This document shows positions 1,972 to 31,848 of a stretch of DNA of 64,000 nt, piece after piece. The first letter of the stretch is position 1; each line of letters starts with the position of its first letter. The stretch is from Protula sp. h YS-2021 (taxonomy: Eukaryota; Annelida; Polychaeta; Sabellida; Serpulidae). Made by a program: the position numbers and the translations under genes. Under the pieces are notes generated by a model. That model worked only from the letters and a program-made list of their open reading frames with translations, had not been told where the DNA came from and searched no databases. The stretch lies in NCBI GenBank assembly GCA_949752745.1, contig OX457034.1:5884264-5948263 (forward strand). Reading direction: 5' to 3'.

Positions 1972-2035
1972 CTAGGCCCGGGCGTTGGCTTTACCGATAT
2001 ACAGCATCCACATAGAGCTCTCGCATTCAGTCACG
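1972..2035 (-). CDS. tim: timeless exon 20, probable last coding exon with TAG
   Basis: After a strong polypyrimidine tract and acceptor (ttttttctttccag/CGTGA), the frame set by exon 19 codes SVTECESSMWMLYIGKANAR A and then TAG. No homology is recognised, and no AATAAA was found downstream on this strand. The true end of the gene could instead lie beyond the left edge. Confidence 0.5.
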
Positions 2036-5000
2036 CTGGAAAGAAAAAACAACAGACTTTATTCACGTTCCCTATTGTTCTGCATTATTTTACCACACTA
2101 CTGCTCACGAATCAGACACACACGAAAAGACGTAGCCAGGAAAAAAGCATCTTCGCTGCAAAGCTGCTTCTAATATTCATCAAATTTACCGCTGTGCACA
2201 TGATTTTCTCGTCTCTCAATTACACGAACGAGTTTTGAAATAAGTAGGGCTAATATATGACGAGTAGTGAAATGAGTAGGGTTACTATATGACGAGTGGT
2301 GAAATAAGTAGGGTTGTATGAAAAGTAGTGAAATAAGTGGGGTTATTACATGACGAGTAGTGAAATAAATAGGGTTGTTATGTGACCAGCAGTGAAATAA
2401 GTAGGGTTACTATGTGACTAGTAGTGAAATAAGTAGGGTTATATGAAAAATAGTGAATTAAGTAGGGTTATTATATGACGAGTAGTGAAATAAGTAGGGT
2501 CACTGTGTGACGAGTCGTGAAATAAGTAGGGTTATTACGTGACGAGTGGTGAAATAAGTAGGGTTATTATATGACAATTAGTGAAATAATTAGGGTTACC
2601 GTATGACAAGTGGTAAAATGAGGCTATTATAAGACGAGTCGGGAAATAAGTAGGGTTATTATATGACAAGTAGTGAAATAATTAGGGTTACCGTATGACA
2701 AGTGGTAAAATGAGGCTATTATAAGACAAGTGGGGAAATAAGTAGGGTTATTTTACACCGAAAGGAGGGATAAATGGCATTAACAAATAATAAGTGGTGA
2801 AATAAGTAAAGTATTATAAAACGAGTGGTGGATAAGTGTGGTTATTATATACCTGTTTTCAGCAGCAGACTCAGGACTGTTGAACGGAAGCGACGTCATT
2901 TTGTCGCAATAAGCTTTAACGTCTTGTGGCGTAAACTTTGTTTTGGCTGAAAAAGAGGAATTGCAGTGTCATCTAACAGTATCATCTAATATGCACTTGA
3001 GCGATTGTTTTCAGAGGAAAGCTTGGGCACGGGATCGCGTTAACTAGAGCGCCGGGAGATCTGGGTATGCCCGTTTAAACGTGCAACTCTTAGCAACGTT
3101 ACAATCTCTTAAAAATAATATCCCTGCTACGCCTTATTATTTTGTCAATGTACCACTCTATGACTCAAATAAGAATATATCCAGCAAATATGAATTCGAA
3201 TTTCATAAAATCAGTTGACCTTTTATTGTCATTCAAGGTCACCAAGGTCTAATTACCCGAACATTATTTTCTTTCTGTCTGAGCCTTTCGTTTTTTTTTT
3301 TGTTTTTTTTTTTAGAACTTGTGGGTTCAAATTCTGAAGAAACGGGAAAAAGCTTCCATCTGTCGAATAGAGAACTGATAGAAAACTAGCACATATAACA
3401 GTCTTACGTATATTGATCTTCTATATGTATCCCTTTCAATACATAAGGCAATGGCAAAGGGGACAGAGAAAAGACTAGCACATATAGACTGAATAACGAT
3501 TGCAACGATTTTATGGCTACTGTCCCCACTGAGAGATATTACCGAGAAATTCTATTTAATTTCACTTTTTTTCCATTATTTACAGCAGAGTTTTTGCTTA
3601 CAGTAATCGACAGGCCCCAGCTGCTCCGCTTTCTGGATGAGGTGTTGTACGTCCCAGCTGTGCGGTATGCGTGGATAAACCTCCTCATCCTGTGCAGCGC
3701 CCTCTATCCCTATACAACACCCATAACAACATACAGGGTGAATGCTCCAAGTCTCCCTGTACAATACGCACATAAACACGGGGGGCCGATTTCACAACTT
3801 AAGTCTAGACCTGATTTGGAGCAAACTTAGTCTAGACCGCGGTTTAGACTGGGTTTCAGACCATAGTGAATTTCACAGCCTCGGTCCAAACCACATTCAT
3901 AATCAACCTTCTCTTTCCCCGAGTTTTGCATTTAAGTTGAAAGATATTACATGGACGTTATTGATAAGACAATAAACAGTCACGCGTGTATTTTTTATCA
4001 GTGATCAGCAAAATTATTGTTAAGTTTTGATAAGATGGCCGCATGATTTTATGTCTGTTGCATTTTTCTGTCAACATATATCTCATTTCAATTTTTGGTT
4101 TATTGTGCAGGGCTGGAAAAAGATATTTTTTTCTCGTTGGGCACTCCGTCCAGTGATTCATGAAATTTACTGGACCGCACTCAAATTTCGGTGGATCACC
4201 TCATAAACCATATGTACCAAAGTTGATAAATTTTGGTGGACATCCGGTGGAGTCAATCAAAAATTTTAGTGGACCAGAAGGACATTTATTGGACATTTGC
4301 CAGCAACTAATGCTTTTTTAGCCCTATTGTGTATTTCTTAAAGCTAGTTAGCCATTAGATTTTGATATTTTAGCTCAAAACAAAGTTGAAACCACGGCTA
4401 AACCATGCTTTCACCAAACCAAGTTTGAAGCAGAATTTCACAACTTCAGTCTAGACCTGGTTTGATTGGACCACACTTCATAATGCACCCGTTTCAGGAC
4501 GACCATCGACTGAATTCTAGTGATACAGACTACAAAAACGGTTCGCTTATGACCAGTGTATAGTGTATTGCGAATCGGGGTCATGGTATAATGTGTCACA
4601 GCATATCCTGCGTCTCCGAGCAAATAACAACCACGTAAAGCTTCTAATACGACGAGCAGATTACATTTTTCTAGAATGCGGCTATCATGTGTACCCCCTG
4701 GCCAGCGAGCCACAATGTTACTATTCCTGCAGTGAGCATCGCACACGATTTGAACGTTTATGCTGTAAATAATGGTGGGTTTTTATATAGCGACTTTCCA
4801 GATGAAGCAACTGCTCAAACAACTTTACATCAAGTTTCGAACATACATTACAGTCATTTTTATTTTAACCAAAGATTACTATTAATTCGACGTGCTCATA
4901 CAGCGTTTCTTAAAGTCCCTATCTAATGCAGCCAAGATGGCGCTTTACAATATTCCTAAGTAGAAAGGCAGAAAACTATATAAGCACATCCATATCCGTA

Positions 5001-8000
5001 GGGGTGTGATTAATGTTGCGATTCCTAGCCATGAGCGGGATTCGAACCCACGACCTACAGCACAACGATTGGATGTGAAAGCGGCTTTAACCACTCGGCC
5101 ACACCCTTTCCATTAATAAAACGCAACGCGTCGTTTTGCTTCGGCTTCGCAATCTTTATATGAGTGCAGTCTATGGCACCTATTACATTTGGAAAGCCAG
5201 CAATAGCATGAAAATCCCGTTTGATACGCCAATAGTTATCTTCTCGCGGAAAATTTATGTACCCGTTTTTTTCGCGCGGCTTACACACGAGCAACTCTAT
5301 GAATAATGCGACGAGCGGTCGATATGCTCACGCCATGCAAGTCACCGGCCGTCCGTTGAAATCTACCAATGGCGAAAAATCTGAGACCGATTAAAACGTG
5401 TAGCTCCTGAGTTATATCCAAACGTTTTGAAACGGGGCCATCAAAATCCTGTTCAAGTTCATCGATTATTTCTAATGCAATGTGCCGTGAAAATCGGTAC
5501 CGCTGCCTAAATTCAACGTCATTGTATTTATCCAAGGGGTTTGAACGGTCTCTAAATACACGTTCTCTTCTTAAAGCTCTTTGATAATTTCGAAAGTGCA
5601 TCGGTCCAAGAACGTTCATATTCCTTTATTTCTCGGCTAATTCCTCATTTATAATTTTGATCAAAAGTTAAATAAGACACTATTGAAACATATTTGTAAG
5701 TGCAGATCTTTGCGGGAAGAATGTGATTCTGAGCACCTGTGTGAAAAACATATGTTGACCTGATGTTCAAGGTGTTATCATCATATAAAATGCTGTCATC
5801 AAATACTGAAACCTACTCTAATATGGTCTGTATCTACGCGCGGTTTTAATGATCATAATGGTCTAGTACAATTTTGAAACCCAGGTTGTCAAATCGGATC
5901 GCACATCATGCATGTTTTGATACATAACAAAGAGAAACAGAGAGGGGAACTATGTCTGTGTAAACTGACAAAACCCGGTCTAGACTGGGTTTGAAACATG
6001 GTTTCAGACCAGGTCTAGACTTAAGTTGTGATATCGGCCCGGGGTGTCTCCAGTACAATACGCACATAAACACGTGGTGTCTCCCTGTACAATACGCACA
6101 TAAACGCGGGTGTCTCCCTGTACAATACGCATATAAACACGGGTGTCTCCCTGTACAATACNNNNNNNNNNNNNNNNNNNNNNNNNNNNNNNNNNNNNNN
6201 NNNNNNNNNNNNNNNNNNNNNNNNNNNNNNNNNNNNNNNNNNNNNNNNNNNNNNNNNNNNNNNNNNNNNNNNNNNNNNNNNNNNNNNNNNNNNNNNNNNN
6301 NNNNNNNNNNNNNNNNNNNNNNNNNNNNNNNNNNNNNNNNNNNNNNNNNNNNNNNNNNNNNCGCTACAGGAAAACGTCAAGGCCACAGGAATGGCGTCAG
6401 AGAAATAGAAATGACGTCACGCTACAGGAATAACTCAAGAGCCACAGGAATGACGTCACAGCCACAGGAATGACGTCAAGTCACTGCAATGACGTCACAC
6501 ACCAGGAATGACAACTGGCTGTAAGAACGACATCATCTCACAGACTACGACCGCCGTGACAGCTCTCACCTGATTCAAGTCCTTGTTGATGCCTACAGCG
6601 TCCAGCTCCCTCCTCACTGTCTCCTCGAAGTCGTCGCAGCCGTCGCACGCCATGCAGATCTGGTAGAGCTCGTCGAGCTCCGCCTTGCTCCACGCACCCG
6701 CCGTCACCTCCATCGTCGTGTCGTCCGGCGAGCCGGAGCTGAAGCACACACCAACACTGTACGCACATGGCAGTGGGGGAGGGGGGGGGGGAGGGGGAAG
6801 GGGAGGGGCTGTCGAACAAGTCAGAAAATTTTGCATCTGTACTTTGCGACTGTTCCTGACGCGTGGAAGCTGGCACCATACATTTTGGACTGAATTTATA
6901 GTGATGTCACGTGACACCGGTGAGTTCATTGTGACGTCACCAGCTGACCTGCCATATTTGCAGTTTCTACTGATTCAGGCACTCGTGAAGCGAATGAGAC
7001 AAACATTAACGTGACTGAAGTGACCCTCAAAAACTCGCCAAAAAATAAATAAATAAATAAATAAAGTCTTCTGGAACAGGGTTTGAAACATCGAAACTTT
7101 TAAAGAGCTTACTCGCACCTGTACTCATCCGCAAAGCATAATAAATATAGATTGTCGCACCTGCTCCAAGCGCCATCTTGTGTCCCCTCCTGGAAATTGA
7201 GTAACAGTTTGGCGCAGTGCATGGGGTCACACTCGGCGCTCTGCATGTACTGTTGAAACGAGTACTCCATGAGATCTTTGCATTCCTGCAAATACAGATT
7301 CCATTCTAAAAATATTTATCTATTTTAAATAAATAAAGAAAATACACAACACTGTCAAACTATTTTTGATAACTCTATTTTAAAAATTAACCATGCCTTT
7401 TTAAAGTTTATTCCCAAACACTGCATAGTTTTAAAAGGTCCTAACTATACAAATTATGCTACTGCCCTCTTTTAGTGCCCCTCCCCCAGCATACCCGAGG
7501 ATAACGAAAACCTGCCTTATTTATGGGGCCCCTCCCTGAGCATATAGAAGGATAATAATTGCACATACAATACATACCACTAGTATCTCGATAGGAACCC
7601 TCTTCCAGTACTGAGAAAGCAAATGATTACCTGCGACAGTGTTTGTTTATACGTACCCTCCTCCAGTATGCAAAAGAGAAATTTTAACGGGCACAATATT
7701 TGTGACACTGTTTATAGGGCCCCTCCTTCAGCATACGAAACACAAATTATTACTGCACAATATCTGTGACAGTGTTTGTAGGGCCCCTCCTCAAGCATAA
7801 ACATCATTGCTTACGCATTTCCTGCGACAGCATTTGTTTATGGGACCCCTCTTCCAGCATACAGGAGGCAAATCATTTCATACACAATACCTGTGACAGT
7901 AGTTGTTTATAGGGCCCCTCCTCCAGCATACAGAAGGCGTTGAGGATGGGCAGCTGGAGCAGGGTCTGTGGGCGGCCGCAGTCGGTGGCCACGTGGTGCA

Positions 8001-11000
8001 TCATGGTGAACACCTGCTCGACGGTCTGCGCGGAGCACACGCGGTAGTGCGTCAGCAGCGTGCCGTACTGCCGCATCACTTCGTTCGTGGCAAAGCTGTA
8101 AAAAGGCGCACACACATTCCTCGCAACCTCTCAGATGCAACATTGAAATTCTGCTCTAACTTTCTTTTTGCAGCTAACTGAGTGGTTCACCAAAAATGAA
8201 GTCACATAAAATGTTGCGTTCAGACCAAGATTGAATGCTCGCAATTTTATTCTCATATATTCCAATCGATGTAAACAAATTTCAAATACAGATGAATTAA
8301 TTTAATTAATACATTTGATAGATTATTAATGTATCCAGCTTAAAATTAAACGAAAAAGAAGTGGCTATTTGCACCACTACAGCTGATCTCAAGATTCGCA
8401 TATTAATAAATATAGATCAAGAAATTACTGCGGTGCGAAAAGAATCTACAAAAGTCAACATCAGTCCCGTACTTATGGTCAGAAGTTATTTGCAGATATC
8501 CTCCTTCAGTGATTATAATTAGAACTTACTTTCGGGGGTTATGGTCAGACCTTACTTGCCGATGCCCTCTTTCAGTAGTAATAATTAGAACTTCATTTCA
8601 GTCGTTATGGTCAGAAATTACTTGCTGATGTCCTCTTTCAGTGGTTATGGTCAGAACTTACTTGCTGATGTCTTCTTTTAGTGGTTATGATCACAACTTA
8701 CTTGCTGATGTGCTCTTTCAGTGGTTATGGTCAGAACTTACTTGCTGATGTCTTCTTTCAGTGGTTATGATCAGAACTTACTTGCTGATGTCTTCTTTTA
8801 GTGGTTATGGTCACCACTTACTTGCTGATGTGCTCTTTCAGTGATTATGGTCAGAACTTACTTGCTGATGTGCGCTTTCAGTGGTTATGGTCAGAACTTA
8901 CTTGCTGATGTCTTCTTTCAGTGGTTATGATCAGAACTTACTTGCTGATGTCTTCTTTTAGTGGTTATGGTCACAACTTACTTGCTGATGTGCTCTTTCA
9001 GTGATTATGGTCAGAACTTACTTGCTGATGTGCGCTTTCAGTGGGTATGGTCAAAACTTATTGCTGATGTTCTCTTTTAGTGGTAATGGTCAGAATTTAC
9101 TGGCTGATGTCTTCTTTTAGAGTTACGGTCAGAACTCATTTGCTGATGTGCTCTTTCATTGGTTATGGTCAGAACTTACTTGCTGATATACTCTTTCAGT
9201 GGTTATGGTTAGAACTTACTTGCTGATGTGCACTTTCATGTCAAAGTAGCTGCGGCGACTATCTACAGACAGGAGCAACTCGGTCATGGTGAGGAAGGCA
9301 TGGTTGAGCTTGATGACGCACTTGAGGTACGACAGCTGGTGCGTGGCCGGCTTGTAGAGGCGAATGAGCAGCAGCAAGACATGGCGAAGGTCACTCTGCT
9401 GCACCAGCATCACCTGCGTGCAGATAACCGCGTCACGTCACCACCAGTACGGGTTCTTAAATGACAACCTGAACTCAAAAGCTCTGGTATTTCGACTCTT
9501 AGTTTTCTAATTTAAAAACTTCCAAGATATTCTCAGGAAAAAAAATCACCGCATGCATCTTTCTTGTGTTTTTATGGACTCAGAGATCTTTTTTTTTGCA
9601 CACGTGACGCCGCAGTCGCCGGTTGTAAACTTCCCAGGTAACCATTCCCTCAGCACAGTCAACTTCCAACCTACTGGTCCATGTGCCATCCCTTTGCGGG
9701 AAGGGGATGGGGGGGGGGATTTCCCCATCCATAGGCTGGAAAGCCGCATGTGGTGTGGACAAAGCCATGGGGGTGGGGGGGGAGATGGGGGGGGGGGGGC
9801 GGGGGGGTGTGAGACGCGTACCTGTATGTTGAAGAGGTACTGTCTCTCCTCAGCACTAAGCTCCGTGCTACGCCAGTAGAAATCCAGGCACTTGAACATG
9901 TACTTGAGTCCAGTTAACGCCAAGTCAATCCTGCGAGAAGAAGCCACGCGTTTTCACGCAGACCAAATGTCCTTAAACGAGATCTCACTAGACTGTCACC
10001 CGACCAAATGTCCTCACACGAAATCTCACTAGACTGTCACCCGACCAAATGTCCTCACACGAAATCTCACTAGACTGTCACCCGACCAAATGTCCTCACA
10101 CGAAATCTCACTAGATTGTCACCCAACCAAATGTCCTCACACGAAATCTCACTAGATTGTCACCCAGCCAAATGTCCTTACACGAAATCTCACTAGGCTG
10201 TCACCCAACAAAATGTCCTTACACGAAATCTCACTACACTGTCACCCAACCAAATGTCCTTACACGAAATCTCACTAGATTGTCACCCAACCAAATGTCC
10301 TCACACGAAATCTCACTAGATTGTCACCCAGCCAAATGTCCTTACACGAAATCTCACTAGGCTGTCACCCAAACAAAATGTCCTTACACGAAATCTCACT
10401 ACACTGTCACCCAACCAAATGTCCTTACACGAAATCTCACTAGATTGTCACCCAACCAAATGTCCTTACACGAAATCTCACCAGACTGTCACCCAACCAA
10501 ATGTCCTTACACGAAATCTCACTAGATTGTCACCCAACCCAATGCCGCGATATCGTGTTCAAGGATCATTTATAATAACATAAAATTGCGACATTCACAC
10601 GACACCATTACATAAAAGAGCTTTGGTCATTTTCTCCCCAGAAGAAGCGTTTTTTAGTATGCAGCTAGCAAAAAAAAAAAACAAAAAAAAAAAAAAAAAA
10701 AAACACAACAAAACAAAACAAACTGCCATAAGTCAAAACGCCAAAGCGGAAATTGTGAGCCCTAATGAAGACGATAGTTGTAATTTTTAGTTACGGGTAG
10801 CCATATAACCGCATTAGACAGCGTAATCAACAGCAATGTGTTGCCAGGCAACATCTGCTTCGTTCTACATCTCCGCAGTTCTCCTCACAATTTACTTGAA
10901 TGTTTTTTTTTTCAGTTTACAAATAAGACAAATTCGAATTGAAACAGAAGTCTTCAAAGCTGTCAGAAAGGTCACATGTGTGAAGGTCACATGTATGAAG

Positions 11001-14000
11001 GTCACATGTGTGAAGGTCAGATGTATGAAGGTCAGATGTGTGAAGGTCAGATGTATGAAGGTCACATGTGTGAAGGTCACATGTGTGAAGGTCACATGTG
11101 TGAAGGTCACATGTATGAAGGTCAGATGTGTGAAGGTCACATGTATGAAGGTCACATGTATAAACCATACGTGCTTGTTTCAGGCCTGGAAGGAATTTTT
11201 TATTCAGACATATATAACGCGACAGCATTTTCACAACAATATTGGAAAGGAGCCTGGGACTTAGGGCTGTCCGTGAAGTCCACACGCCCGCACGTATTTA
11301 ACTGGGGTTGGGTGGGGAAGGGTTGAGCTGTTAGCTCCAATGCCTATACTTTCGCACAAGAAGAAGGGGGGGGGGGTCGCGTCACATGCATTGTTTTAAT
11401 TGCTGGATAAATGTGCAACGATGCTTTAGTCATTCACCCTGTGTGCTATACGCAAGCGCGTACAGTGGAGAGGAAGGGGGAGGAGGGGGGAGGAGGGGGT
11501 GGAGAGCGTGAGCGTTATCCTTGCGCACAGAACAGGAGCAGGGTATGAAATATCATCAAAAATTTACGCATGCACTTTATATGTACGGTCCCTTAATGAC
11601 AGGTGCACTAGTCCTCGCTCCCGTGCTGTAACACAAACCCCGGGGGGGGGGGGGGAGGTATACTCCTCGCTATAGTGCTGTAACACATGCCCGGCGAGCG
11701 ACACACCGGGAGTGAGGGACTTACTTATTTGTGTAAGCGGTACAGTCCTCGCCCCTTTGCTGACACAGCAGCAGCTTCTCGCTGTTCACAGCGCACGTGT
11801 AGATGAGATAGTCCACGGTGTACACCGACAGCAAGTCCCTGCAAACCCAGTAAAAAACTATGAAAATATTTAATTTAAGTACATTTTTAAAGGTGTCGCA
11901 AACAAAAATTTTATTGAAAATTCAACTTATTTTAAGCCTTTGAGTTTACCATACATTTCGCTGCGCTGCAGCTCATTTTACTTATAACCTTCTGAATGGT
12001 TACTCTCCTCTCTTACCCCCATCTAAAATGGTTTAACTGGCGGTTCGACCAAACGCCAAACCTGCAGGCCACCACCAGAAAACACCTGCCTGTCAAGTCC
12101 CATCCCAACCCCACTCACACAACTCCCCCCCCCCCACCCTACGTCACCCGCCCGACCCAAAAGGACCGCCAAATCTGCAGGCCCCCATCAGAAAACACCT
12201 GCCTGTTCATCCCAACCCCACTCACACAACCTCCCCCCCCCCCCGCCCTACATCACCCGCCCGACCCCAAGAGGAACGCCACACCTGCAGGCCCCCATCA
12301 CAGAACACCTGCCTGTTCATCCCAACCCCACTCACACAACCCTCCCCTCCCGTCCTACGTCACCCGCCCGACCCCAAGAGGAACGCCAAACCTGCAGGCC
12401 CCCATCACAGAATACCTGCCTGTTCATCCCAACCCCACTCACACAACCCCCCCCCCCCCGCCCTACATCACCCGCCCGACCCCAAGAGGAACGTCACACC
12501 TGCAGGCCCCCATCACAAAATACCTGCCTGTTCATCCCAACCCTACTCACACACCCCCCCCGCCCTACATCACCCGCCCGACCCCAAGAGGAACGCCACA
12601 CCTGCAGGCCCCCATCACAAAATACCTGCCTGTTCATCCCAACCCCACTCACACAACCCCCCCCCCCCCCGCCCTACATCACCCGCCCGACCCCAAGAGG
12701 AACGCCAAACCTGCAGGCCCCCATCACAGAACACCTGCCTGTTCATCCCAACCCTACTCACACCCCCCCCCCCCCCCGCCCTACATCACCCGCCCGACCC
12801 CAAGAGGAACGCCACACCTGCAGGCCCCCATCACAAAATACCTGCCTGTTCATCCCAACCCCACTCACACAACCCCCCCCCCCCCCCGCCCTACATCACC
12901 CGCCCGACCCCAAGAGGAACGCCAAACCTGCAGGCCCCCATCACAGAACACCTGCCTGTTCATCCCAACCCCAATGACATGTTGAACCTGTGTGCAGCGT
13001 CATGAGGCAGAAGCTCAGGCTCCACATGTAGGATAATACACCCTCCTTTCCCTTCCTCCTTTTCCTCTCTCCCCATCTTCTCCGCCCCCCCCCCCGCCTT
13101 AACTCACCTGGCCGCGGCGAAGGACACGTTGAACCTGTGTGCCATCATCAAGCAGAAGCTCAGGTTCCACATGTAGTACATACTCGTCTGCGGCTGCGCC
13201 ACGTCATTCACCAGCAGCGTCTGAAACGTCACGAGGCAATGGGTGCAACGTCATGGCGCAACGGGTGCAACGTTAGCGCGCCACGTCACAACGCAATTAG
13301 TGCAATCCACAATAGTAATGCAAAGGGACACTTTTAATCAGTATGCTTTGTAATTTGCGCTGTCAGATCTTAAAACTTCATATATAAATATTGTAGTAAG
13401 TGCATTAATATAGGGGACACAGACATTAATATATGTGTAAAATTACTCTTTTATCCAACCCGTTTTCCAAACATAGGCCAACGCGACAGGGGAAATGTAA
13501 AAGATTGAATATATGAGCCTTCCACCTGTCTCTTTCTCGATGGATGCGCGGAAATTTTATGTCTATTTCCCTCCCACCCAAACCTCTCCCTCTATGGGGC
13601 CAAATGAAAGCATCTTCACAAGCTACATATTACTGTGTAATCTTATCTCTGTGCTATTTATAACCACGCCTTTCCAAGTTCACAGTCCAGTTTTCAAAAG
13701 TGCTTTGTCATTCCCAACTGTTTTACTTTGTTGACAAAGGAAAATTACTGGTTTCCGTTGTCTTTTGTTGTCTCTGTGGGCACGTACCTTAACCGCGCAT
13801 AGCAACCGGGCATAACCATTACTTAGCAACGTGTAGGAGAATTCTCTCAACTTCTCCCTGGCAACAAAAAGCAGGTCGCTAATTGGTCAAGATAGCGCTC
13901 CAACAACCGTCATACAAATATGGCGGTGCCCATGAATACTACCATTTTAAAAAATATACTGAAGTCTTTAAATGCGGAATATCAAATCTGACCAAAGTTA

Positions 14001-17000
14001 TCGAATAATTCTGAAACCTCTCTTCCAGTTAAGAGCCGAGCTAAATGCTATGCGTTATTTGTGTTTTTAATCGTCAATTCCGGAATGCAAAGTCGTTACC
14101 AACAGAACGCATCATATGTTATGACGTCACACCTGACAAAGATGATGGTGACCTCTGACGTCAGCGACTCGGCAGTTTTGGATGACGCAGAGCCCGCCAG
14201 ACTTCGACGTGTGTCGCTCGTCACTGCAAATGAACACACTCGTCATAATAACGGCATTTTATTTTTGTTTCAAAGACAGTTACAGGCGCCAATGACATGT
14301 CATAGCGTTGACATCGGTTATGTCAAAGAATTGTTTTTATTTCGTGACTGTAGTGCGCGTACACAGGAAACGGCAGTATTTTTGCAATTCTTCGTGTTTT
14401 TTTTTTTTATTTATTTATTTATTTTTTTATTTATTTTGTTCTTTGTGGTGGGGGGGGGGGGGAGGTAAAGTTTTAGAGGAGGTACAAGGCGCCACCGTGG
14501 AAGCACCGACCAATACTGTGGGAGGGAAAATAGGTCGGGCAGGTAAAAAGTGTGGTCGGGCAGTTCTAAAAATCAAGCTGCAAAGAAGTGACTTTCGTGT
14601 CCGCAGTGGGCGGAGAATATCGCTTTGATTGACACGTGTCCGAATAACTGCGTTAGATCCAACATGCAACAATTCAACAATCACTGTGTACCGAATGACG
14701 GGGAATAAATAGACAGAGATTCGACTTACCTAGCGTTGCCAGAGGTTGAAAAGCCTCAACCATGGCACAACCTTCAACTGATAAATAAAGGGGCAAAGTT
14801 TACTTCGGCACCATATTTCGGTTCAAATCCAAAACGTGTATGTTCGTATCAATAAATGGAAAAAGTACTGCAGTTTATAATTTTTAGACATTTTTTTGGC
14901 TTTATTTTATTTATATACTTCTTCTTTTTTTTGGTGGGGAGGGGGAAAAGGGGAGGGGGTCGGAGTTTCAGCGGAGCTAACTCAAGTGATTTATGGGTGT
15001 ATAAGGTGAAGTATTGAGAGTTGCATGTGTATAAGGTGTCACAGTAAGCCTGGCATGTGTATAAGGTGTCACAGTGAGCCTTGCATGTGTATAAGGTGTA
15101 ACAGTAAGCCTTGCATGTGTATAAGGTGTCACAGTAAGCCTTGCATGTGTATAAGGTGCCACAGTAAGCCTGGCATGTGTATAAGGTGTCACAGTAAGCC
15201 TGGCATGTGTATAAGGTGTCACAGTAAGCCTGGCATGTGTATAAGGTGCCGCAGTAAGCCTGGCATGTGTACAAGGTGCCGCAGTAAGCCTGGCATGTGT
15301 ATAAGGTGCGCAGTAAGCCTGGCATGTGTATAAGGTGCCGCAGTAAGCCTTGCATGTGTATAAGGTGCCGCAGTAAGCCTGGCCTGTGTATAAGGTGTCA
15401 CATTAAGCCTTGCATGTGTATAAGGTGTCACAGTAAGCCTGGCATGTGTATAAGGTGCCACAGTAAGCCTGGCATGTGTATAAGGTGCCGCAGTAAGCCT
15501 TGCATGTGTATAAGGTGTCACAGTAAGCCTTGCATGTGTATAAGGTGTCACAGTAAGCCTTGCATGTGTATAAGGTGTCACAGTAAGCCTTGCATGTGTA
15601 TAAGGTGCCACAGTAAGCCTGGCATGTGTATAAGGTGTCACAGTAAGCCTGGCATGTGTATAAGGTGTCACAGTAAGCCTGGCATGTGTATAAGGTGTCA
15701 CAGTAAGCCTGGCATGTGTATAAGGTGTCACAGTAAGCCTGGAATGTGTATAAGGTGAAGCAGTAAGCCTTGCATGTGTATAAGGTGCCGCAGTAAGCCT
15801 TGCATGTGTATAAGGTGTCACAGTAAGCCTTGCATGTGTATAAGGTGTCACAGTAAGCCTTGCATGTGTATAAGGTGCCACAGTAAGCCTGGCATGTGTA
15901 TAAGGTGCCGCAGTAAGCCTTGCATGTGTATAAGGTGCCACAGTAAGCCTTGCATGTGTATAAGGTGTCACATTAAGCCTGGCATGTGTATAAGGTGTCA
16001 CAGTAAGCCTTGCATGTGTATAAGGTGAAGCAGTAAGCCTGGCATGTGTATAAGGTGCCACAGTAAGCCTTGCATGTGTATAAGGTGAAGCAGTAAGCCT
16101 GGCATGTGTATAAGGTGCCGCAGTAAGCCTGGCATGTGTATAAGGTGCCGCAGTAAGCCTTGCATGTGTATAAGGTGTCACAGTAAGCCTTGCATGTGTA
16201 TAAGGTGTCACATTAAGCCTGGCATGTGTATAAGGTGTCACAGTAAGCCTTGCATGTGTATAAGGTGCCACAGTAAGCCTTGCATGTGTATAAGGTGAAG
16301 CAGTAAGCCTGGCATGTGTATAAGGTGCCGCAGTAAGCCTGGCATGTGTATAAGGTGCCGCAGTAAGCCTTGCATGTGTATAAGGTGTCACAGTAAGCCT
16401 TGCATGTGTATAAGGTGTCACATTAAGCCTGGCCTGTGTATAAGGTGTCACATTAAGCCTTGCATGTGTATAAGGTGTCACAGTAAGCCTGGCATGTGTA
16501 TAAGGTGCCACAGTAAGCCTGGCATGTGTATAAGGTGCCGCAGTAAGCCTTGCATGTGTATAAGGTGTAACATTAAGCCTGGCATGTGTATAAGGTGTCA
16601 CAGTAAGCCTTGCATGTGTCTAAGGTGTCACAGTAAGCCTTGCATGTGTATAAGGTGAAGCAGTAAGCCTGGCATGTGTATAAGGTGCCGCAGTAAGCCT
16701 GGCATGTGTATAAGGTGCCGCAGTAAGCCTTGCATGTGTATAAGGTGTCACAGTAAGCCTTGCATGTGTATAAGGTGTCACAGTAAGCCTGGCATGTGTA
16801 TAAGGTGTCACAGTAAGCCTTGCATGTGTATAAGGTGCCACAGTAAGCCTGGCATGTGTATAAGGTGAAGCAGTAAGCCTGGCATGTGTATAAGGTGAAG
16901 CAGTAAGCCTGGCATGTGTATAAGGTGCCGCAGTAAGCCTTGCATGTGTATAAGGTGCCACAGTAAGCCTTGCATGTGTATAAGGTGCCACAGTAAGCCT

Positions 17001-20000
17001 GGCATGTGTATAAGGTGTCACAGTAAGCCTGGCATGTGTATAAGGTGCCACAGTAAGCCTGGCATGTGTATAAGGTGAAGCAGTAAGCCTGGCATGTGTA
17101 TAAGGTGAAGCAGTAAGCCTGGCATGTGTATAAGGTGCCGCAGTAAGCCTTGCATGTGTATAAGGTGCCACAGTAAGCCTGGCATGTGTATAAGGTGAAG
17201 CAGTAAGCCTTGCATGTGTATAAGGTGCCGCAGTAAGCCTGGCATGTGTATAAGGTGAAGCAGTAAGCCTGGCATGTGTATAAGGTGTCACAGTAAGCCC
17301 TGCATGTGTATAAGGTGCCGCAGTAAGCCTGGCATGTGTATAAGGTGAAGCAGTAAGCCTTGCATGTGTATGAGGTGTCACAGTAAGCCCTGCATGTGTA
17401 TAAGGTGCCACAGTAAGCCTGGCATGTGTATAAGGTGCCGCAGTAAGCCTTGCATGTGTATAAGGTGCCACAGTAAGCCTTGCATGTGTATAAGGTGTCA
17501 CATTAAGCCTGGCATGTGTATAAGGTGTCACATTAAGCCTGGCATGTGTATAAGGTGCCGCGGTAAGCCTGGCATGTGTATAAGGTGAAGCAGTAAGCCT
17601 GGCATGTGTATAAGGTGTCACAGTAAGCCCTGCATGTGTATAAGGTGTCACAGTAAGCCTGGCATGTGTATAAGGTGTCACAGTAAGCCTGGAATGTGTA
17701 TAAGGTGAAGCAGTAAGCCTTGCATGTGTATAAGGTGCCGCAGTAAGCCTGGCATGTGTATAAGGTGCCGCAGTAAGCCTGGCATGTGTATAAGGTGCCA
17801 CAGTGAGCCTTGCATGTGTATAAGGTGTCACAGTAAGCCTGGCATGTGTATAAGATGTCACAGTAAGCCTTGCATGTGTATAAGGTGTCACAGTAAGCCT
17901 GGCATGTGTATAAGGTGCCGCAGTAAGCCTTGCATGTGTATAAGGTGCCGCGGTAAGCCTGGCATGTGTATAAGGTGAAGCAGTAAGCCTGGCATGTGTA
18001 TAAGGTGTCACAGTAAGCCCTGCATGTGTATAAAGTGTCACAGTAAGCCTGGCATGTGTATAAGGTGAAGCAGTAAGCCTTGCATGTGTATAAGGTGAAG
18101 CAGTAAGCCTTGCATGTGTATAAGGTGTCACAGTAAGCCTGGCATGTGTATAAGGTGCCGCGGTAAGCCTGGCATGTGTATAAGGTGCCACAGTAAGCCT
18201 TGCATGTGTATAAGGTGAAGCAGTAAGCCTTGCATGTGTATAAGGTGTCACAGTAAGCCTGGCATGTGTATAAGGTGTCACAGTAAGCCCTGCATGTGTA
18301 TAAGGTGTCACAGTAAGCCTGGCATGTGTATAAGGTGTCACAGTAAGCCTTGCATGTGTATAAGGTGAAGCAGTAAGCCTTGCATGTGTATGAGGTGTCA
18401 CAGTAAGCCTGGCATGTGTATAAGGTGTCACAGTAAGCCTTGCATGTGTATAAGGTGAAGCAGTAAGCCTGGCATGTGTATAAGGTGCCGCAGTAAGCCT
18501 TGCATGTGTATAAGGTGCCACAGTAAGCCTTGCATGTGTATAAGGTGAAGCAGTAAGCCTTGCATGTGTATAAGGTGTCACAATAAGCCTGGGATGTGTA
18601 TAAGGTGAAGCAGTAAGCCTTGCATGTGTATAAGGTGTCACAGTAAGCCTGGCATGTGTATAAGGTGCCACAGTAAGCCTGGCATGTGTATAAGGTGTCA
18701 CAGTGAGCCTTGCATGTGTATAAGGTGTCACAGTAAGCCTGGCATGTGTATAAGGTGAAGCAGTAAGCCTTGCATGTGTATAAGGTGTCACAGTAAGCCT
18801 GGCATGTGTATAAGGTGCCGCGGTAAGCCTGGCATGTGTATAAGGTGAAGCAGTAAGCCTGGCATGTGTATAAGGTGCCACAGTAAGCCTGGCATGTGTA
18901 TAAGGTGTCACATTAAGCCTGGCATGTGTATAAGGTGCCGCAGTAAGCCTGGCATGTGTATAAGGTGAAGCAGTAAGCCTTGCATGTGTATAAGGTGCCG
19001 CAGTAAGCCTGGCATGTGTATAAGGTGAAGCAGTAAGCCTTGCATGTGTATAAGGTGTCACAGTAAGCCTTGCATGTGTATAAGGTGCCACAGTGAGCCT
19101 TGCATGTGTATAAGGTGCCGCAGTAAGCCTGGCATGTGTATAAGGTGCCGCAGTAAGCCTGGCATGTGTATAAGGTGAAGCAGTAAGCCTTGCATGTGTA
19201 TAAGGTGTAACAGTAAGCCTGGCATGTGTATAAGGTGTAACAGTAAGCCTTGCATGTGTATAAGGTGAAGCAGTAAGCCTGGCATGTGTATAAGGTGTAA
19301 CAGTAAGCCTTGCATGTGTATAAGGTGTCACAGTAAGCCTTGCATGTGTATAAGGTGCCGCAGTAAGCCTTGCATGTGTATAAGGTGCCGCAGTAAGCCT
19401 TGCATGTGTATGAGGGAATGCTGTTAGCCTTGCATGAAGTAACGAGAAACAGGCGTCAAAAACATTTTCAGAATGTTCAACATCAAGATTAATCACGAAA
19501 AATACTCAAAATGTTAGAAAAAATAACAGATGTTAAACATCGGAAATTCTTCCTGGGGTTAAGACCCTTTTCCAAGCCATAAGACCCATTTTTAGGCGTC
19601 AAGACCCTTTTTTAGGCGTCAAGGCCCTTTTCCAGGTGTTAAGACCCTTTTCCCGGTGTTAAGACCCTTTTTAAGGTGTTAAGACCCTCTTCCCGGTGTT
19701 AAGACCCTTTTTAAGGTGTTAAGACCCTTTTCCCGGTGTTAAGACCCTTTTTAAGGTGTTAAGACCCTTTTTAAGGTGTTAAGACCCTTTTCCCGGTGTT
19801 AAGACCCTTTTTAAGGTGTTAAGACCCTTTTTAAGGTGTTAAGACCCTTTTCCCGGTGTTAAGACCCTTTTTAAGGTGTTAAGACCCTTTTTAAGGTGTT
19901 AAGACCCTTTTTAAGGTGTTAAGACCCTTTTCCCGGTGTTAAGACCCTTTTTAAGGTGTTAAGACCCTTTTTAAGGTTTTAAGACCCTTTTTAAGGTGTT

Positions 20001-23000
20001 AAGACCCTTTTCCCGGTGTTAAGACCCTTTTTAAGGTGTTAAGACCCTTTTTAAGGTGTTAAGACCCTTTTCCCGGTGTTAAGACCCTTTTTAAGGTGTT
20101 AAGACCCTTTTTAAGGTGTTAAGACCCTTTTTAAGGTGTTAAGACCCTTTTCCCGGTGTTAAGACCCTTTTCCCGGTGTTAAGACCCTTTTTAAGGTGTT
20201 AAGACCCTTTTTAAGGTGTTAAGACCCTTTTTAAGGTGTTAAGACCCTTTTCCAGGCGTCAAATCTACGCCAAAGGCCAAACATTAATTTCGAGTGCTGA
20301 ATGAAGCCTATAACCCTGTGGGAAAAGAGTTATTTTAAGGCCGATGTGTATCGCGCACTCCCTCCCGCTCCCCCGCACTCCCTCCCTCATCGCACTCCCT
20401 CCTCCCCACCCTCCCCTGCACTCCCTCCCCCTCCGCACTCCCTCCTCCACCCCTCCCTCATACTTTTACCACAACCTTATTATATCGCAGTCTTGCGTGA
20501 TTCTTATCGGTAGCTGCTTTTATGGATCCAGCCAACGCTTTATTGTGAAGCCGGCTGTTTTTAAGGATCCATGGTAATGCGTTTTCTATCTTGGGATTAG
20601 TAGTTTTCGGACTTACAATTTTGTTTTCGATGCATCATCTCGGACTAGCGACATTTGGAAGTCCCCCCCCCCCCGCCCCCTCCTTCGCCAGCACGCCATT
20701 TTAGGCAGCAAAGCCACCAAATCGAAAGATGCAGCGATGCCACGTCACAGGGGTATGCACGCATGACTTCCCAGAGGCATGTACGCATGAGGTCACAGGG
20801 ACATGTACGCATGGCGTCATAGGGTTATGTACGCATGACGTCAAAGGGGCATGTACGCATGACGTTACAGAGGCATGTACGCATGACGAAACCGGCAGAG
20901 AAAGAGTAAAAACCCTTCATGGTTATGATGATGAGGCGAACATCACACAAACACCCACATGAAAGCAGATCACAGGTAACAGAAAAACAGCGGTGGCTAG
21001 CAGCAGGCACAAAGCGACACATTACATCTTCAAACACACCAAAATATGAGCGCAAAGCGTACGTTATCAACGCAACTCAAGCTCACTATATATACGACGA
21101 GTGATTATTATATATAATAAACACAGCTGGGAATACCATACTGGCTGGACACAATCATACGCATGTAGATTACGGTTTTCGTTGTAGATAAGATAAAACA
21201 AAACAGACAAAAGCCACATACAAAATTCAAATGCCCCAAAGAAATCGAAGCCCCCTCCCAACATAAAAAACACTTAAATGCAATTCCGAGGAAGAGGGAA
21301 AGGGGGAGGAGGGTATCGGTCAGAGATATTGAAAGTGAGTTGCTCACTTCTGGTGGCGGCGGACACGTCACTTCCGGTGGCGGGCGCCTCGGTGAAGTAC
21401 TGCGAGTCGTCAGTGGCCGTCTCGTCGCTGTTCTCACTACTCGCGCCCAGGCTCGGCTGATACGAGTGGCACAGTGTCCTCTCCTGTCAACAGACGCGCA
21501 CGTGTATGTCATGCGCACGTCACGCGCACGTGTATGTCACGCGAACGTGTCACGCGCACGTATATGTCACGCGAACGTGTATGTCACACGAACGTGTATG
21601 TCACGCGAACGTGTCACACGCACGTGTATGTCACGCGAACGTGTGTCACGGGCACGTGTATGTCACGCGAACGTGTATGTCACGCGCACGTGTATGTCAA
21701 GCGATCATGTATGTCACACGCACGCCTCTGTCACGCGCACGTGCATGTCATGCGCACGTGTATGTCACGCGCACGCCATGCGCACGTCATGCATATTTCA
21801 CGCCATACGCACTGCTTGTCCAAAATCCTCGCAATCCGGCAGCGACCATGGCGCTTCATGAAAATCGGCTGCTAAAACGCGTCAACTGTCGGCTCACCAG
21901 TTTCTGCTTAAACGCGTCAAGTGTCGGCTCAGCAGTTTCTGCTAAAACGCGTCAAGTGTCGGCTCAGCAGTTTCTGCTAAAACGCGTCAACTGTCGGCTC
22001 ACCAGTATGTATATCCGTGGAAAAAATTGTTTACTTTCGCATTTTTTATGAGGCTAACATTTACACAACTGTACGTTAGAAAAGAAAATTTAGCATAACG
22101 TACAGGGTCTTTATACATGAGCGTGATGAGTTCTATGATGGACAGCGTCCACTTCTCATACTGTGGCGAGTTCACACAATACAAGACCACGTCCTTCAGG
22201 CCGAACTGAAACAGCAGTCTGCAATCAACCAAAGCACAAACGGCATCAATGTCATCTCCCAAATATAGATTATAAGAAAATACAAAATACTCTCAATCCA
22301 GAGGCAGTTTGTTTTGCTTACTTTTAATATACATGCTGAATGATTTTAGAGCAAAAATATTTTTTGAATATGCTCAAGAGTGTCATGAAAGTGCTCTCAA
22401 GTGTGTTGAAATCGACACGTGGTTACATCATCCGGTTGCTAGGCACTGTGCAGACATTCAGAAACAGCCATGAGAATTGTTATTGACAGCATTTCGGAGT
22501 TTTAGAATTATCAAAACACTTCGTCTGGCCACAGCATATTGTCAAACCGGCAAAACTGTTTCCCGCCAACACTAGAGCTGGTTCTCTCGCTGAGGCTGAT
22601 CACGTACCTGAGTATGACGCTGCTGAGGCTGATGGCGTATCTGAGTATGACGGTGCTGAGGCTGCTCACGAACCTGAGTATGACGGTGCTGAGGCTGATG
22701 GCGTACCTGAGTATGACGGTGCTGAGGCTGATCACATACCTGAGTATGACGGTGCTGAGGCTGATGACGTACCTGAGTATGACGCTGCTGAGGCCGATGG
22801 CGTACCTGAGTATGACGGTACTGAGGCTGCTCACGAACCTGAGTATGACGGTGCTGAGGCTGATGACGTACCTGAGTATGACGCTGCTGAGGCTGATGAT
22901 GTATCTGAGTATGACTCTGCTGAGGCTGATGACGTACCTGAGTATGACGCTGCTGAGGCTGATGACGTACCTGAGTATGACGGTGATGAGCCTGTTCACA

Positions 23001-26000
23001 TGAATGAGTATGACGGTACTGAGGCTGCTCACGAACCTGAGTATGACGCTGCTGAGGCTGATGACGTACCTGAGTATGACGCTGCTGAGGCTGATCACAT
23101 ACCTGAGTATGACGGTGCTGAGGCTGATGACGTACCTGGGAATGACGCTGCTGAGGCTGATGACGTACCTGAGTATGACGGTGCTGAGGCTGATGACGCA
23201 CCTGAGTATGACGCTGCTGAGACTGATGACGTACCTGAGTATGACGCTGCTGAGGCTGATGACGTACCTAAGTATGACGGTGCTGTGGCTGATGACGTAC
23301 CTAAGTATGACGCTGCTGAGGCTGATGGCGTACTGAGTATGACGGTGCTGAGGCTGTTGACGTATCTGAGTATGACGGTGCTGAGGCTGATGACGTACCT
23401 GAGTATGATGGTGCTGAGGCTGATCTCCTTACTGCTGCACGCCGCCCCCGTGGGTGAGTCGGACAGGTAGAGCAGGTTCCTGTACAGGAAGAACATGTTG
23501 TCCATTGCGTCGCACAGCTCCTCCGACAGCTTCTTCTCACGGTCCTATAACGAAAAACTGACAGATATTTCTCCTCATTCCCGCCCTTCTTTAACCCTTT
23601 TCCGCAGGGGTTTTGGTTTCACAGGGATTTAGCACGGAAGAGATTATCTGGAGAATTATAATGCCCTGGATGTAATGCCCTGGATTCCACTAGCTTGCAT
23701 GTAAAACGGCATATCGCTCGCAATGACACTAAACTATGTTAAAACACAAAACCCTTGAGCCCCGCCCTTACACACACACATCCGCACACACAGCCACCTC
23801 TTTTCCACATAGCGTCCGTACGTACCACTTTCATCATGTCCGTCAGTCTGTCCAGGATGATGTTGGTCGGCTGCGCCCTCGTAAAAGCCTTGACCCCCAC
23901 CCCCTCCTTACCTTACACATACACACACTAACCACCTCTTTTCTACATGGCGTCCGTGCGTACCTCCTTCATCATGCCCGTCAGTCTGCCCAGGATGACC
24001 TTGGTCGGCTACGCCTTTGTATAAGCCTTGACACGCCCCCCCCCCCCCCACCCCGTCCCACCTTACACACACACACACACACTAACCACCTCTTTTCTAC
24101 ATGGCGTCCGTGCGTACCTCCTTTATCATGTCCGTCAGCCTGCCCAGGATGATCTTGGTCGGCTCCGCCTTTGTAAAAGCCTGCTTTATCCTCAGCGGCA
24201 ACAGTTGCGTTTCCTTCACCAGCGTCTCTAGCTCGATCAGTTTGTGTGGAATCTGCTGAGTCGCTTCACTCTTTCTAAATTTCTCCAAAGTCTGCAGCTG
24301 TACACGAAGGTTAGGAATGAGGCATTCCAGCGGCTGGCTGATATGTGCCAGAACCCTGTCAAAATAAAATAATAACCTGCCGTTGCACAAGTTCACTATA
24401 TATACTTTCTGCCTGTAAAATTTGGTTTGCTTCCGACAAATAGTAACAGAGATATCGCGCGAACAAAAACAGACAGCCAGACAGACAAGTTCATAACTAT
24501 ATCCCTCCGTTACACGGGGGATAACAACACAAAACTGCAGTCATTTACGATAACATCCGTAGTATTTTCTCACAAACACATCTGCTATAGTTTTGTTGAG
24601 GGGGTGGGGAACCATTAAATATTTTAAAATGGGAGAGTCTGCGTTAAAAAAATAAAAATAAATACACAGCAATCAATAATTTTCTTACTGGGGAAGAAAA
24701 ATTCTTAATTTTATTTGCAAGGAATTTATGAAAGGAATTTAGAAAGCAGAGCAGAGATTATCACTCACTTGACAGCCGCGAAAAAGATACTGTCTTTATT
24801 TTCTATGTCGCTGTTGACGTCATCGTCAAGGCTGAAGAGAAGAGGCAGGAGATTCTACAAACACAGGACATAAAATGTCAACCCGAGCGGGTGAGGGGGG
24901 AGGGGTGAGGGGAAGTGAGGGGGGATGGGTCGGGGCGGGTTGTAATGTGACATAGTGCGGGACGTGAGATGTGAACCCCCTCAGGGCAGGGCATGACAGA
25001 TGAAACCTGCTACGCTCGTAATATCAAATACTACGGGGTTTCGGGTTAACATTAGCAATTCCGCCTTTTTATCGGTATTAAAATTTTTACGCCCATCCTT
25101 TTCTGGTTCACATCTATATGTAGGCGCATGCAAGACTGAGCTTTACCTTCCTGATGACGTCATACAAGACTGAGTCTTACCTTCCTGATGACGTCATACA
25201 TGACTGAGCCTTGCCTTCCTGGCGATGTCATACAGGACTGAGTCTTACCTTCCTGGTGACGTCATACAAGACTGAGCCTTACCTTCCTGGTGACGTCATA
25301 CAAGACTGAGCCTTACCTTCCTGATGACGTCATACAAGGCTGAGTCTTACCTTCCTGATGACGTCATTCAAGGCTGGGCCTCACCTTTCTGGTGACGTCA
25401 TACAAGACTAAGTCTTACCTTCCTGATGACGTCATACAAGGCTAGGCCTTACCTTCCTGATGACGTCATTCAAGGCTGGGCCTCACCTTTCTGGTGACGT
25501 CATACAGGACTGAGTCTAACCTTCCTGGTGACGTCATACAAGACTGAGCCTTACCTTCCTGGTGACGTCATACAGGACTGAGTCTTACCTTCCTGGTGAC
25601 GTCATACATGACTGAGCCTTACCTTCCTGACGATGTCATACAAGGCGCAGTATCTGCGGAAGTAACGCGTGTTTTTGTCTTCCGTCAACAGGCCTTTCTG
25701 AATCTCCTCCAACGCGTCTGTAACACAAAGCAATTACTGGGTCTGTAACACAAGGCAATTACTGGTCTGTAACACAAGGCAATTACTGGTCTGTAACACA
25801 AGGCAATTACTGGTCTGTAACACAAGGCAATTACTGGGTCTGTAACACAAGGCAATTACTGGGTCTGTAACACAAGGCAATTACTGGGTCTGTAACACAA
25901 GGCAATTACTAGTCTGTAACACAAGGCAATTACTGGTCTGTAACACAAGGCAATTACTGGTCTGTAACACAAGGCAATTACTGGTCTGTAACACAAGGCA

Positions 26001-29000
26001 ATTACTGGTCTGTAACACAAGGCAATTACTGGTCTGTAACACAAGGCAATTACTGGTCTGTAACACAAGGCAATTACTGGTCTGTAACACAAGGCAATTA
26101 CTGGTCTGTAACACAAGGCAATTACTGGTCTGTAACACAAGGCATTCACTCACTCACTGTGTCAGTAACATAAGGGAATTCGGCAAAAAAACTGGTAAAT
26201 CCGTGCGTCACAATGGCGCATGAGCAAAATTTATACGCACCATACTAGAAAATAGGTGCGTCATGGCGCACGCCAGAATCACTCGTGTTTACATTGAAAA
26301 ACACCGGATAATCGTATAAATCCGAAAAATGTATGATGTTGTATTGAGAACGGGCTACGGCTGGTCGCGGACTGGTTGCGGACTGGTTGCCCCCTGACAT
26401 ATGTACGGCAGCTTCCTTATCGCTGCAGCCAGCCTTGACCTTTCTCGACAAAACGGAGACGACACTGTCCTTTCTACGGGAATGTTGGGAAAAAAAATCC
26501 AGCAGTGAAGCTGGTTTCAAGCCCCCCCCCCCCCCCCCCCCCGCCAGTTTAGCTACAGAATACTGGATGTTTCAACTGAAAACCTACTGTTACGTTGGAC
26601 ACGAAGTTGTTGTCTGTGTTTCCTTGTGAATTTAAAAAAAAAAAACCTTTCGTGGCACATTTGTACTTTTTGTTTTGTTTTTTTTTTCACTGTGCCTCAC
26701 ATTGTTGGAGAACTTTGACAAACTTTGACAAACTTTGACAAACTTCCATCTCTTAACGGGAAATACGAATGTTTTTAACAAAAAAAAAATGAAATGCCTA
26801 TTCATCAATTCTTGGCTGACTTCAAAACAAAACATGACGTCACACATCTGCATAATAATATGATTTCTAATTGCTATCATTCTCACTGATCATGAACTTA
26901 AATAAAGCAAGCATTTTTATATCAGCCATTTCTTTTCGTAGAACCTTTTTCTTTCTGTAATTTATTTGCACATGTAATATGTTTCCAATCCACGTACTCC
27001 CAGTTGTGATTAATTTCACCAATAGAAGAAATGCGTTTCTGATGTTTTAACTGTAATTTTATAACATTTACATTGTAATTTATAATGTGTCTCTGTCATC
27101 AATGCGTAGTGACGCAAACCTTCATTTGGCCGAATTGCGGAGGATCGCCGAGAAGAGTAGCCTATCAAAACTACCTGCGGAATAGTCACACGCAATTTCA
27201 AAGCAATCGCATGAATACTGATGTGAAGTAGTATTTTAAATAAAAGTGTATATATATATACACAAAGGGGCATATATATACAGACAACAGACGAAATCCT
27301 CTCAATGATTGCTGAGATACAGCGTCTAAGTCTACAGCGCCTAAGTCTACAGCGCCTTAGTCTACAGCGCCTTCGTCCACCGCGCTTAAGTCCACAGCGC
27401 CTAAGTCCACAGCGCCTAGGTCCACAGCGCTTAAGTATACTGCGCCTACGCCAATAGCGCCTAGATCCACAGCGCCTTGGTACACAGCGCCTACGCCCAC
27501 AGCGCCTAAGTCTACCGAGCCTAGGTCCACAGCGACTACATACACTGCGCCTAGGTCCACAGTTCACATTTGTAAGGGCTTTTTTTTAATTTGTCTTTTT
27601 TTTCAATTTTTTACAAAAACAAGAATTAACCGCACATCGCAAAACCCCATTATATGGCCTGTTTTTGATGAAGAACGACACAGAGATGTGGCGCGCACAA
27701 AATGCCTCACTTACATCTGAAATGGCACGTACAAAATGCCTCACTTACATCTGAAATGGCACGTACAAAATGCCTCGCTTACATCTGAAATAGCCCGTAC
27801 AAAATGCCTCACTTACATCTGAAATGGCACGTACAAAATGCCTCACTTACATCTGAAATGGCACGTACAAAATGCCTCGCTTACATCTGAAATAGCCCGT
27901 ACAAAATGCCTCACTTACATCTGAAATGGCACGTACAAAATGCCTCACTTACATCTGAAATGGCACGTACAAAATGCCTCGCTTACATCTGAAATAGCCC
28001 GTACAAAATGCCTCACTTACATCTGAAATGCCGCGCACAAAATGCCTCACTTGCATCTGAAATGCCGCGCACAAAATGCCTCACTTAGATCTGGAATAGC
28101 GCGTACAAATTGGCTCACTTACATCTGAAATAGCGCGCACAAAATGCCTCACTTACATCTGAAATAGCGCGTGCAAAATGCCTCACTTACATCTGAAATA
28201 GCGCGTACGAAATGCCCCACTTACATCCGATATAGCACGTACAAAATGCCTCACTTACATCTGAAATTTCATTTGAAAAAAATGCCAAAAATTCTAAACA
28301 AATGTGAGTGAAAAGCATGAAAACGCACAAAGTTTTAATTTCATATTCCTTTAAGACGCCCTGTGGCCTTCAAACACAAACGACTCGGCTTAGACAGTTT
28401 CACAATATCCATTACATGTTAAACCAAGATTATTCAAAAACAGAACTTGTGTTTGAAAAGTCATTTCAAAAACAGCACGATTACACCATACCATCATTAA
28501 AGTTATAATGAAATCTTCTTGATTTTACTCCTTTTCAATCTTACAAATTGCATCCCTTGCAAAATGAATATCGTTTGTTATCGAAAAAATTAAAGACAAT
28601 TTCCTACTAATTACAGAAATCACAATTTGATCATATTTCCACTGGCATATCCGTGCAGATCACCGGTGAATCAACACGCTCACTTTCGAATTAAGGCTGT
28701 AATTTAAAGCAGTAACCATAGCAACTGAACTGGAGCGATTCCGCTGTCACATAGCACAAAACTTGCATCTTATCACTTGAGAAAAAGCAGTTCGCATTGA
28801 CATTCTGTGTGTCACCAAGTATTATGACGCAGGAACTCCCCCTCCCCCTCCCTCCACAGCGGGGGGTGGGGGCAGGGGAGGAGGCACCTGGTATTATGAC
28901 GCAGGAACTCCCCCTCCCCCTCCCTCCACAGCGGGGGGTGGGGGCAGGGGAGGAGGCACCTGGTATTATGACGCAGGAACTCCCCCTCCCCCTCCCTCCA

Positions 29001-31848: not shown

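Follow-up and report, generated by a model that had tools for sequence, protein, structure and literature searches.

Minisatellite-like repeats lying over exon–intron boundaries, termed 'mirages', have been described in amphioxus, in Adh3 and the globin genes BflGb6 and BflGb9 (PMC3087553) and also in TnC and PGBD5 (PMC3902484). According to the available portions of both papers, the units measure 10–160 bp, they lie over either the 5′ or the 3′ boundary, many copies carry the AG or the GT and normal splicing is undisturbed (PMC3087553, PMC3902484). The globin mirages show length instability and were put forward as a path to intron gain (PMC3087553, available text). In the related Rogers model, as outlined in the accessible parts of the sources, introns are gained by tandem duplication of segments bearing AG|GT (cited in PMC3087553; PMC2891723, PMC4974935). 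Mirages by that name are described only from lancelets in the literature that we found, as far as its available text goes. In annelids, earthworm metallothionein loci have minisatellites in intron 1, together with additional exon 4 copies that do not appear in transcripts (PMC12783039, available text). Among the matches listed in our literature search, no title or opening of an abstract pointed to an annelid mirage.

The window, by which we mean the whole 64-kb stretch of serpulid DNA analysed here, contains a Drosophila-type timeless gene on its minus strand (31848–1972), running from a start ATG at 31848 to a stop codon that ends at 1972. We placed 18 exons; further exons are missing in two gaps, 21347–13857 and 6570–3709, one of which holds a run of N (6162–6361) and pieces of a DDE-type transposase. 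Several exons were found with Drosophila TIM, whose sequence matches PDB 8dd7 over residues 1–1177, and for the remainder frame and phase guided placement by eye; the boundaries are thus based on homology, phase and splice consensus rather than on cDNA. Internal exon ends are AG and GT, with the exon 7 donor uncertain, and the phases, followed by eye, chain throughout apart from the two gaps. Together the exons encode 771 residues, a product in which a profile search finds the Pfam TIMELESS domain (E = 9.7e-19) and which scores 183 bits against Drosophila TIM versus 76 bits against human TIMELESS. Transposase pieces of DDE type, Harbinger-like by eye, occupy 4441–5625 of the minus strand in a timeless intron, with a Pfam DDE_Tnp_4 match at 4441–4782. 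COX1 on contig C218, translated with the invertebrate mitochondrial code, places the genome among the serpulids with fair confidence: the closest named matches are Ficopomatus enigmaticus (65%) and Hydroides elegans (62%), nearly all other named sequences among the best 120 of 8000 scored fall at about 54–58%, and three unnamed ones at 64–67% are unplaced. A lancelet origin, which the mirage literature had brought to mind, was rejected on this basis.

Tandem arrays are abundant in this DNA, occupying 22.4 kb of the window (52 merged arrays with a period of at least 8). The largest found by TRF, at 15023–19415 in a timeless intron, extends over 4.4 kb and repeats a 30-bp unit about 146 times. 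A satellite-like array of 156/312 bp lies at 52958–55197, and stretches near 32–33.5 kb and 44.6–46.3 kb resemble it by eye, as judged from translations only.

The original prediction held that at least six timeless exons are accompanied by arrays whose unit is the exon's own splice junction. When an array is counted as spanning only if it extends at least 5 nt on each side of the junction, arrays span 5 of the 17 placed donors (exons 2, 4, 5, 14 and 15) and none of the acceptors among the 34 timeless junctions tested, and the spanning units carry 19–65 exon nucleotides together with the GT side. All of the following features read on the minus strand. Exon 2 (25623–25717, 95 nt) has junction arrays at both ends, the donor-side array (25127–25644, 34 bp × 15.2) reaching 22 nt into the exon. 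The donor-side array of exon 4 (24118–24355) consists of 2.7 units of 154 bp and reaches 65 nt into the exon (23785–24182). For exon 5 (23399–23544), whose donor we read as CTCAG|GTACGT because the phase of exon 6 then fits, 25.4 units of 33 bp contain 26 exon nucleotides followed by GTACGTC (22589–23424). Exon 14 (9220–9413) is followed by 16.1 units of 40 bp with 19 exon nucleotides and GTAAGT (8473–9238). Exon 15 (7891–8095) has an array of diverged 64–69-bp units with 48 exon nucleotides, reported as two TRF rows (7644–7938), of which the part at 7803–7938 passes the spanning test.

Five of the six exons named thus have spanning donor arrays; the sixth, exon 18, fits the description loosely. 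The exon that we equate with it (2853–2946) is followed by a 32-bp array that does begin at the GT and lacks coding bases (2219–2852; the TRF limits are 2219–2803, and homology reaches the GT of the donor at 2852). Acceptor-side arrays, which had also been claimed, are represented in timeless by exon 2 (25716–26144, 24 bp × 17.7, unit end ...TTACAG|AC), where the units match one another at 98% and the AG is kept in 18 of 18 copies; this array falls short of the 5-nt rule because it includes just the AG and two exon bases.

Other timeless arrays approach junctions or resemble them. The donor at 13107 is followed only by weak, low-scoring copies, and the homology of a 17-bp array at 21494–21775 stops 10 nt before the acceptor at 21483, near the junction without spanning it. 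Two arrays carry strong sense donor motifs: one at 27689–28267 (34 bp × 17, GAT|GTAAGT), for which we found no adjacent exon, and one at 21869–22006 (35 bp × 3.9, CTG|GTGAGC), about 100 nt beyond the exon 6 donor. Both could perhaps mark unannotated or lost exon ends.

Arrays of the same kind occur at junctions of other genes. Profile searches of the 863-Mb assembly (218 contigs) reported 362 matches (Timeless 5, Myosin_head 89, Kinesin 144 and dynein AAA_6 124), from which 170 in retrievable sequence were chosen by hand with haplotype doubles and the repeat copies of contig C143 excluded; these correspond to 164 exons and 328 junctions, or 297 after removal of 31 with weak splice-site scores. 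Arrays span 12 of these non-timeless junctions (4.0%, 95% CI 2.1–7.0%), comprising 6 of 146 donors and 6 of 151 acceptors, and they are distributed over timeout (1), myosins (4), kinesins (5) and dyneins (2). Base-by-base inspection found real copies at ten of the 12, the other two being the last dynein loci. The periods of all 17 spanning arrays, 5 in timeless and 12 elsewhere, lie between 23 and 154 bp. Examples include a kinesin acceptor array of 11 units of 74 bp with 45 exon nucleotides, a myosin donor array of 26.7 units of 34 bp and a timeout acceptor array of 28 units of 30 bp with 7 exon nucleotides. The pattern is shared by myosin, kinesin, dynein and timeout genes, so that the proposed link to the clock gene is not supported, nor is control of clock-gene splicing by the arrays.

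On contig C8 near 24.715 Mb lies a second gene of the timeless family, timeout-like by eye, in which an 830-bp array of 30-bp units extends 7 nt past an acceptor. Contig C74 resembles a second haplotype of the myosin region of contig C11 near 7.27 Mb; what is possibly the same non-spanning array at a myosin exon differs in copy number, at least 6.5 (period 180) versus 3.8 (period 188), the two being compared unaligned.

The original prediction also allowed that selection might preserve duplicated splice sites because, as decoys or spares, they adjust splicing; this can be considered for timeless or for genes generally. Most copies do keep the GT or AG, with a per-column retention of 0.83–1.00 in four timeless arrays, and the exon 5 array, whose period is divisible by 3, would add 33 nt in frame per unit, the first extra unit being free of stops. 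In the same four arrays, however, the GT and AG columns show no better conservation than the unit does on average: 1.00 and 0.93 versus 0.92 for the exon 2 donor, 0.83 and 0.96 versus 0.93 for exon 5, 0.87 and 1.00 versus 0.93 for exon 14, and 1.00 and 1.00 versus 0.99 for the exon 2 acceptor. Exon-derived codons drift in a near-neutral manner. Codons could be compared in 15 of the 17 spanning arrays, the remaining two containing too little exon sequence; in their 113 copies we counted 32 synonymous, 55 nonsynonymous and 4 stop changes, a synonymous share of 35% versus a neutral expectation of 27%; a share slightly above neutral is what is expected if constraint acts on the exon side alone. 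The changes in timeless alone number 13 synonymous, 36 nonsynonymous and 2 stop, or 25% synonymous. The suggestion of in-frame decoy sites also meets the difficulty that a donor used one unit onward would read into a stop in four of the five timeless cases, exon 5 being the exception, and a splice site one unit away meets a stop in 6 of the 10 other arrays scanned. The array copies look free of both coding and splice-site constraint. Motor-protein genes also show the same pattern as timeless, and we regard selection for tandem splice sites as very improbable.

How often arrays should cover junctions by chance was estimated by collapsing each array to one unit and calculating the chance that a random noncoding point falls inside it, with either all arrays included or the junction arrays excluded; both nulls are reported because a screen for donor motifs revealed mirages at exons off our list. 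The original prediction had proposed a genome-wide comparison of junctions with intronic arrays and had suggested either a process that duplicates splice junctions or selection that retains them. Run in small on the 164 exons outside timeless, the comparison gives 12 spanned junctions versus 7.9 expected with the all-array null (P = 0.11) or 5.5 without junction arrays (P = 0.011), so that junction arrays stand at 1.5–2.2 times expectation depending on the null. That the arrays derive from junctions is supported, and a small bias towards junctions is possible, its significance varying with the null. An earlier sample with 10 of 234 junctions spanned had given 5.4 expected when 10 nt were subtracted per unit; since every array continues on its intron side, the subtraction was reduced to 5 nt, whereupon 6.2 were expected (P = 0.10), or 8.2 versus 15 seen with timeless included (P = 0.022).

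Timeless was picked for showing the pattern, which bears both on its own P values, with 5 junctions spanned versus 2.0 (P = 0.053) or 1.4 (P = 0.013) expected, and on the comparison in which it appears richer in spanned junctions than other genes (5 of 34 versus 10 of 234, Fisher P = 0.029). Arrays also cover this gene more densely, at 13.1 of 29.7 kb versus 30.0 of 236.7 kb in the other genes. Timeless and the other genes together have 17 spanned junctions versus 6.8 expected (P = 0.0008, with the null that excludes junction arrays).

Several counts describe where arrays do and do not lie relative to exons. None lies wholly within the 26.7 kb of exon, where 16.7 would be expected at the density of non-junction arrays; this count relies on exons that still match the profiles, and exons broken by arrays would therefore escape it. 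Arrays that stop 0–40 bp short of a junction number 10 versus about 7.6 expected, and the density of non-junction arrays neither rises nor falls consistently as one moves away from the listed exons (0.71, 0.47, 0.55, 0.52 and 0.71 per kb). Overall, arrays are common in the gene regions sampled, and there the rate of junction arrays is about equal to or modestly above that of other noncoding DNA.

The modest excess raises the question of junction-directed mutation, in which, for example, R-loops, nicks or breaks at the 5′ splice sites of transcribed genes seed duplications. The ratio of 1.5–2.2 over the neutral rate would be in keeping with such a process, as would a strand bias of donor motifs. 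In arrays of gene-bearing segments, a strong donor motif occurs in the sense orientation in 23 of 106 and in the antisense orientation in 5 of 106, with background densities of 1.30 sense versus 0.99 antisense per kb predicting 6.3 and 4.8 over 112 arrays. By eye, 9 of the 17 sense-donor arrays outside the list are mirages of unlisted exons. Because of the sense donor excess, a mild donor bias may exist. Acceptor motifs have no such asymmetry (5 sense and 4 antisense of 106 arrays). Donors also account for all five timeless arrays that pass the 5-nt rule and for all nine further arrays recognised by eye at exons outside the match list (including the one on contig C143), though the screen that yielded these nine mainly sought donors. 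Yet among the listed exons donors and acceptors are affected equally (6 of 146 and 6 of 151), the excess is not significant with the all-array null, arrays that narrowly miss a junction are near expectation and non-junction arrays do not thin out or thicken with distance from the listed exons. We therefore consider junction-directed mutation unlikely as the main source of the arrays. More doubtful still is the pair of claims, taken together, that 5′ splice sites of transcribed genes in this annelid are hotspots of tandem duplication through a strand-specific process linked to transcription or splicing, and that this process arose separately in lancelets and serpulids, feeding intron lengthening and gain.

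The arrays are probably mirages: in a genome rich in minisatellites, tandem duplication would have been neutral and tolerated at junctions because the exon-proximal splice site is left intact. Such an array would originate when a short segment that by chance includes an exon–intron junction is duplicated in tandem. Neither the reading frame nor the splice site next to the exon would change, and the intron would simply become longer, so that the event should be invisible to selection. The array would then grow or contract by slippage or unequal exchange while selection on the exon maintains the copy that touches it. The exon-proximal site would presumably be the one used, with the additional copies mostly inert. 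Several results speak against a purely neutral origin: the 2.2-fold junction excess obtained with the null that excludes junction arrays (P = 0.011, or P = 0.0008 with timeless included), the excess of sense donor motifs in array units, and the timeless array at 27689–28267 with its strong donor motif and no exon found next to it.

Duplicated junctions might instead be transitional forms in intron sliding or intron gain, supplying the stock from which further splice sites and introns arise, as proposed for the amphioxus globins. The anatomy of the arrays fits the model set out in the available text of PMC3087553, and a dynein heavy-chain exon piece on contig C143 (24192–25458) lies in a 92-bp × 13.7 array that continues up to the contig end, in which every copy has a 63-nt exon-like piece flanked by AG and GT. 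The arrays seen here lengthen introns that already exist, and we think it very improbable that as a class they represent such intermediates. Neutral duplication remains the reading that we prefer for the arrays, at timeless and elsewhere.

With mirages at roughly 4% of the junctions sampled and five in a single gene, this annelid points beyond a lancelet oddity and towards mirages as a general outcome of minisatellite-rich genomes. Natural junction duplicates of this kind allow splice-site choice among tandem copies to be tested, and they allow one to ask whether such duplicates feed intron gain. For gene annotation mirages are a hazard as well, since good splice sites and pieces that resemble coding sequence recur from copy to copy.

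Set beside the known systems, the annelid arrays belong with the mirages of amphioxus. As in amphioxus, they are minisatellite-like, with periods of 23–154 bp in the 17 spanning arrays; their units cross the boundary and take in coding bases, at five timeless donors and at 12 of the 297 junctions from other genes; 5′ and 3′ boundaries alike are affected, with six donors and six acceptors in the other genes; and many copies retain the AG or GT, here in four timeless arrays. They differ in that the host is an annelid and not a cephalochordate, and in that five spanning donors occur within one gene. The annelid occurrence appears to be new, in that no earlier case was among the matches listed in our literature search. 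The likeness to the earthworm metallothionein loci is that of minisatellite arrays inside an annelid gene, whereas the arrays there are not described as junction-spanning in the available text of PMC12783039. Intron gain by tandem duplication shares with the present case the duplication of exon–intron signals, but here it is existing introns that lengthen. For the annelid there is an estimate of frequency, 4.0% of sampled junctions; for amphioxus there is a check of splicing.
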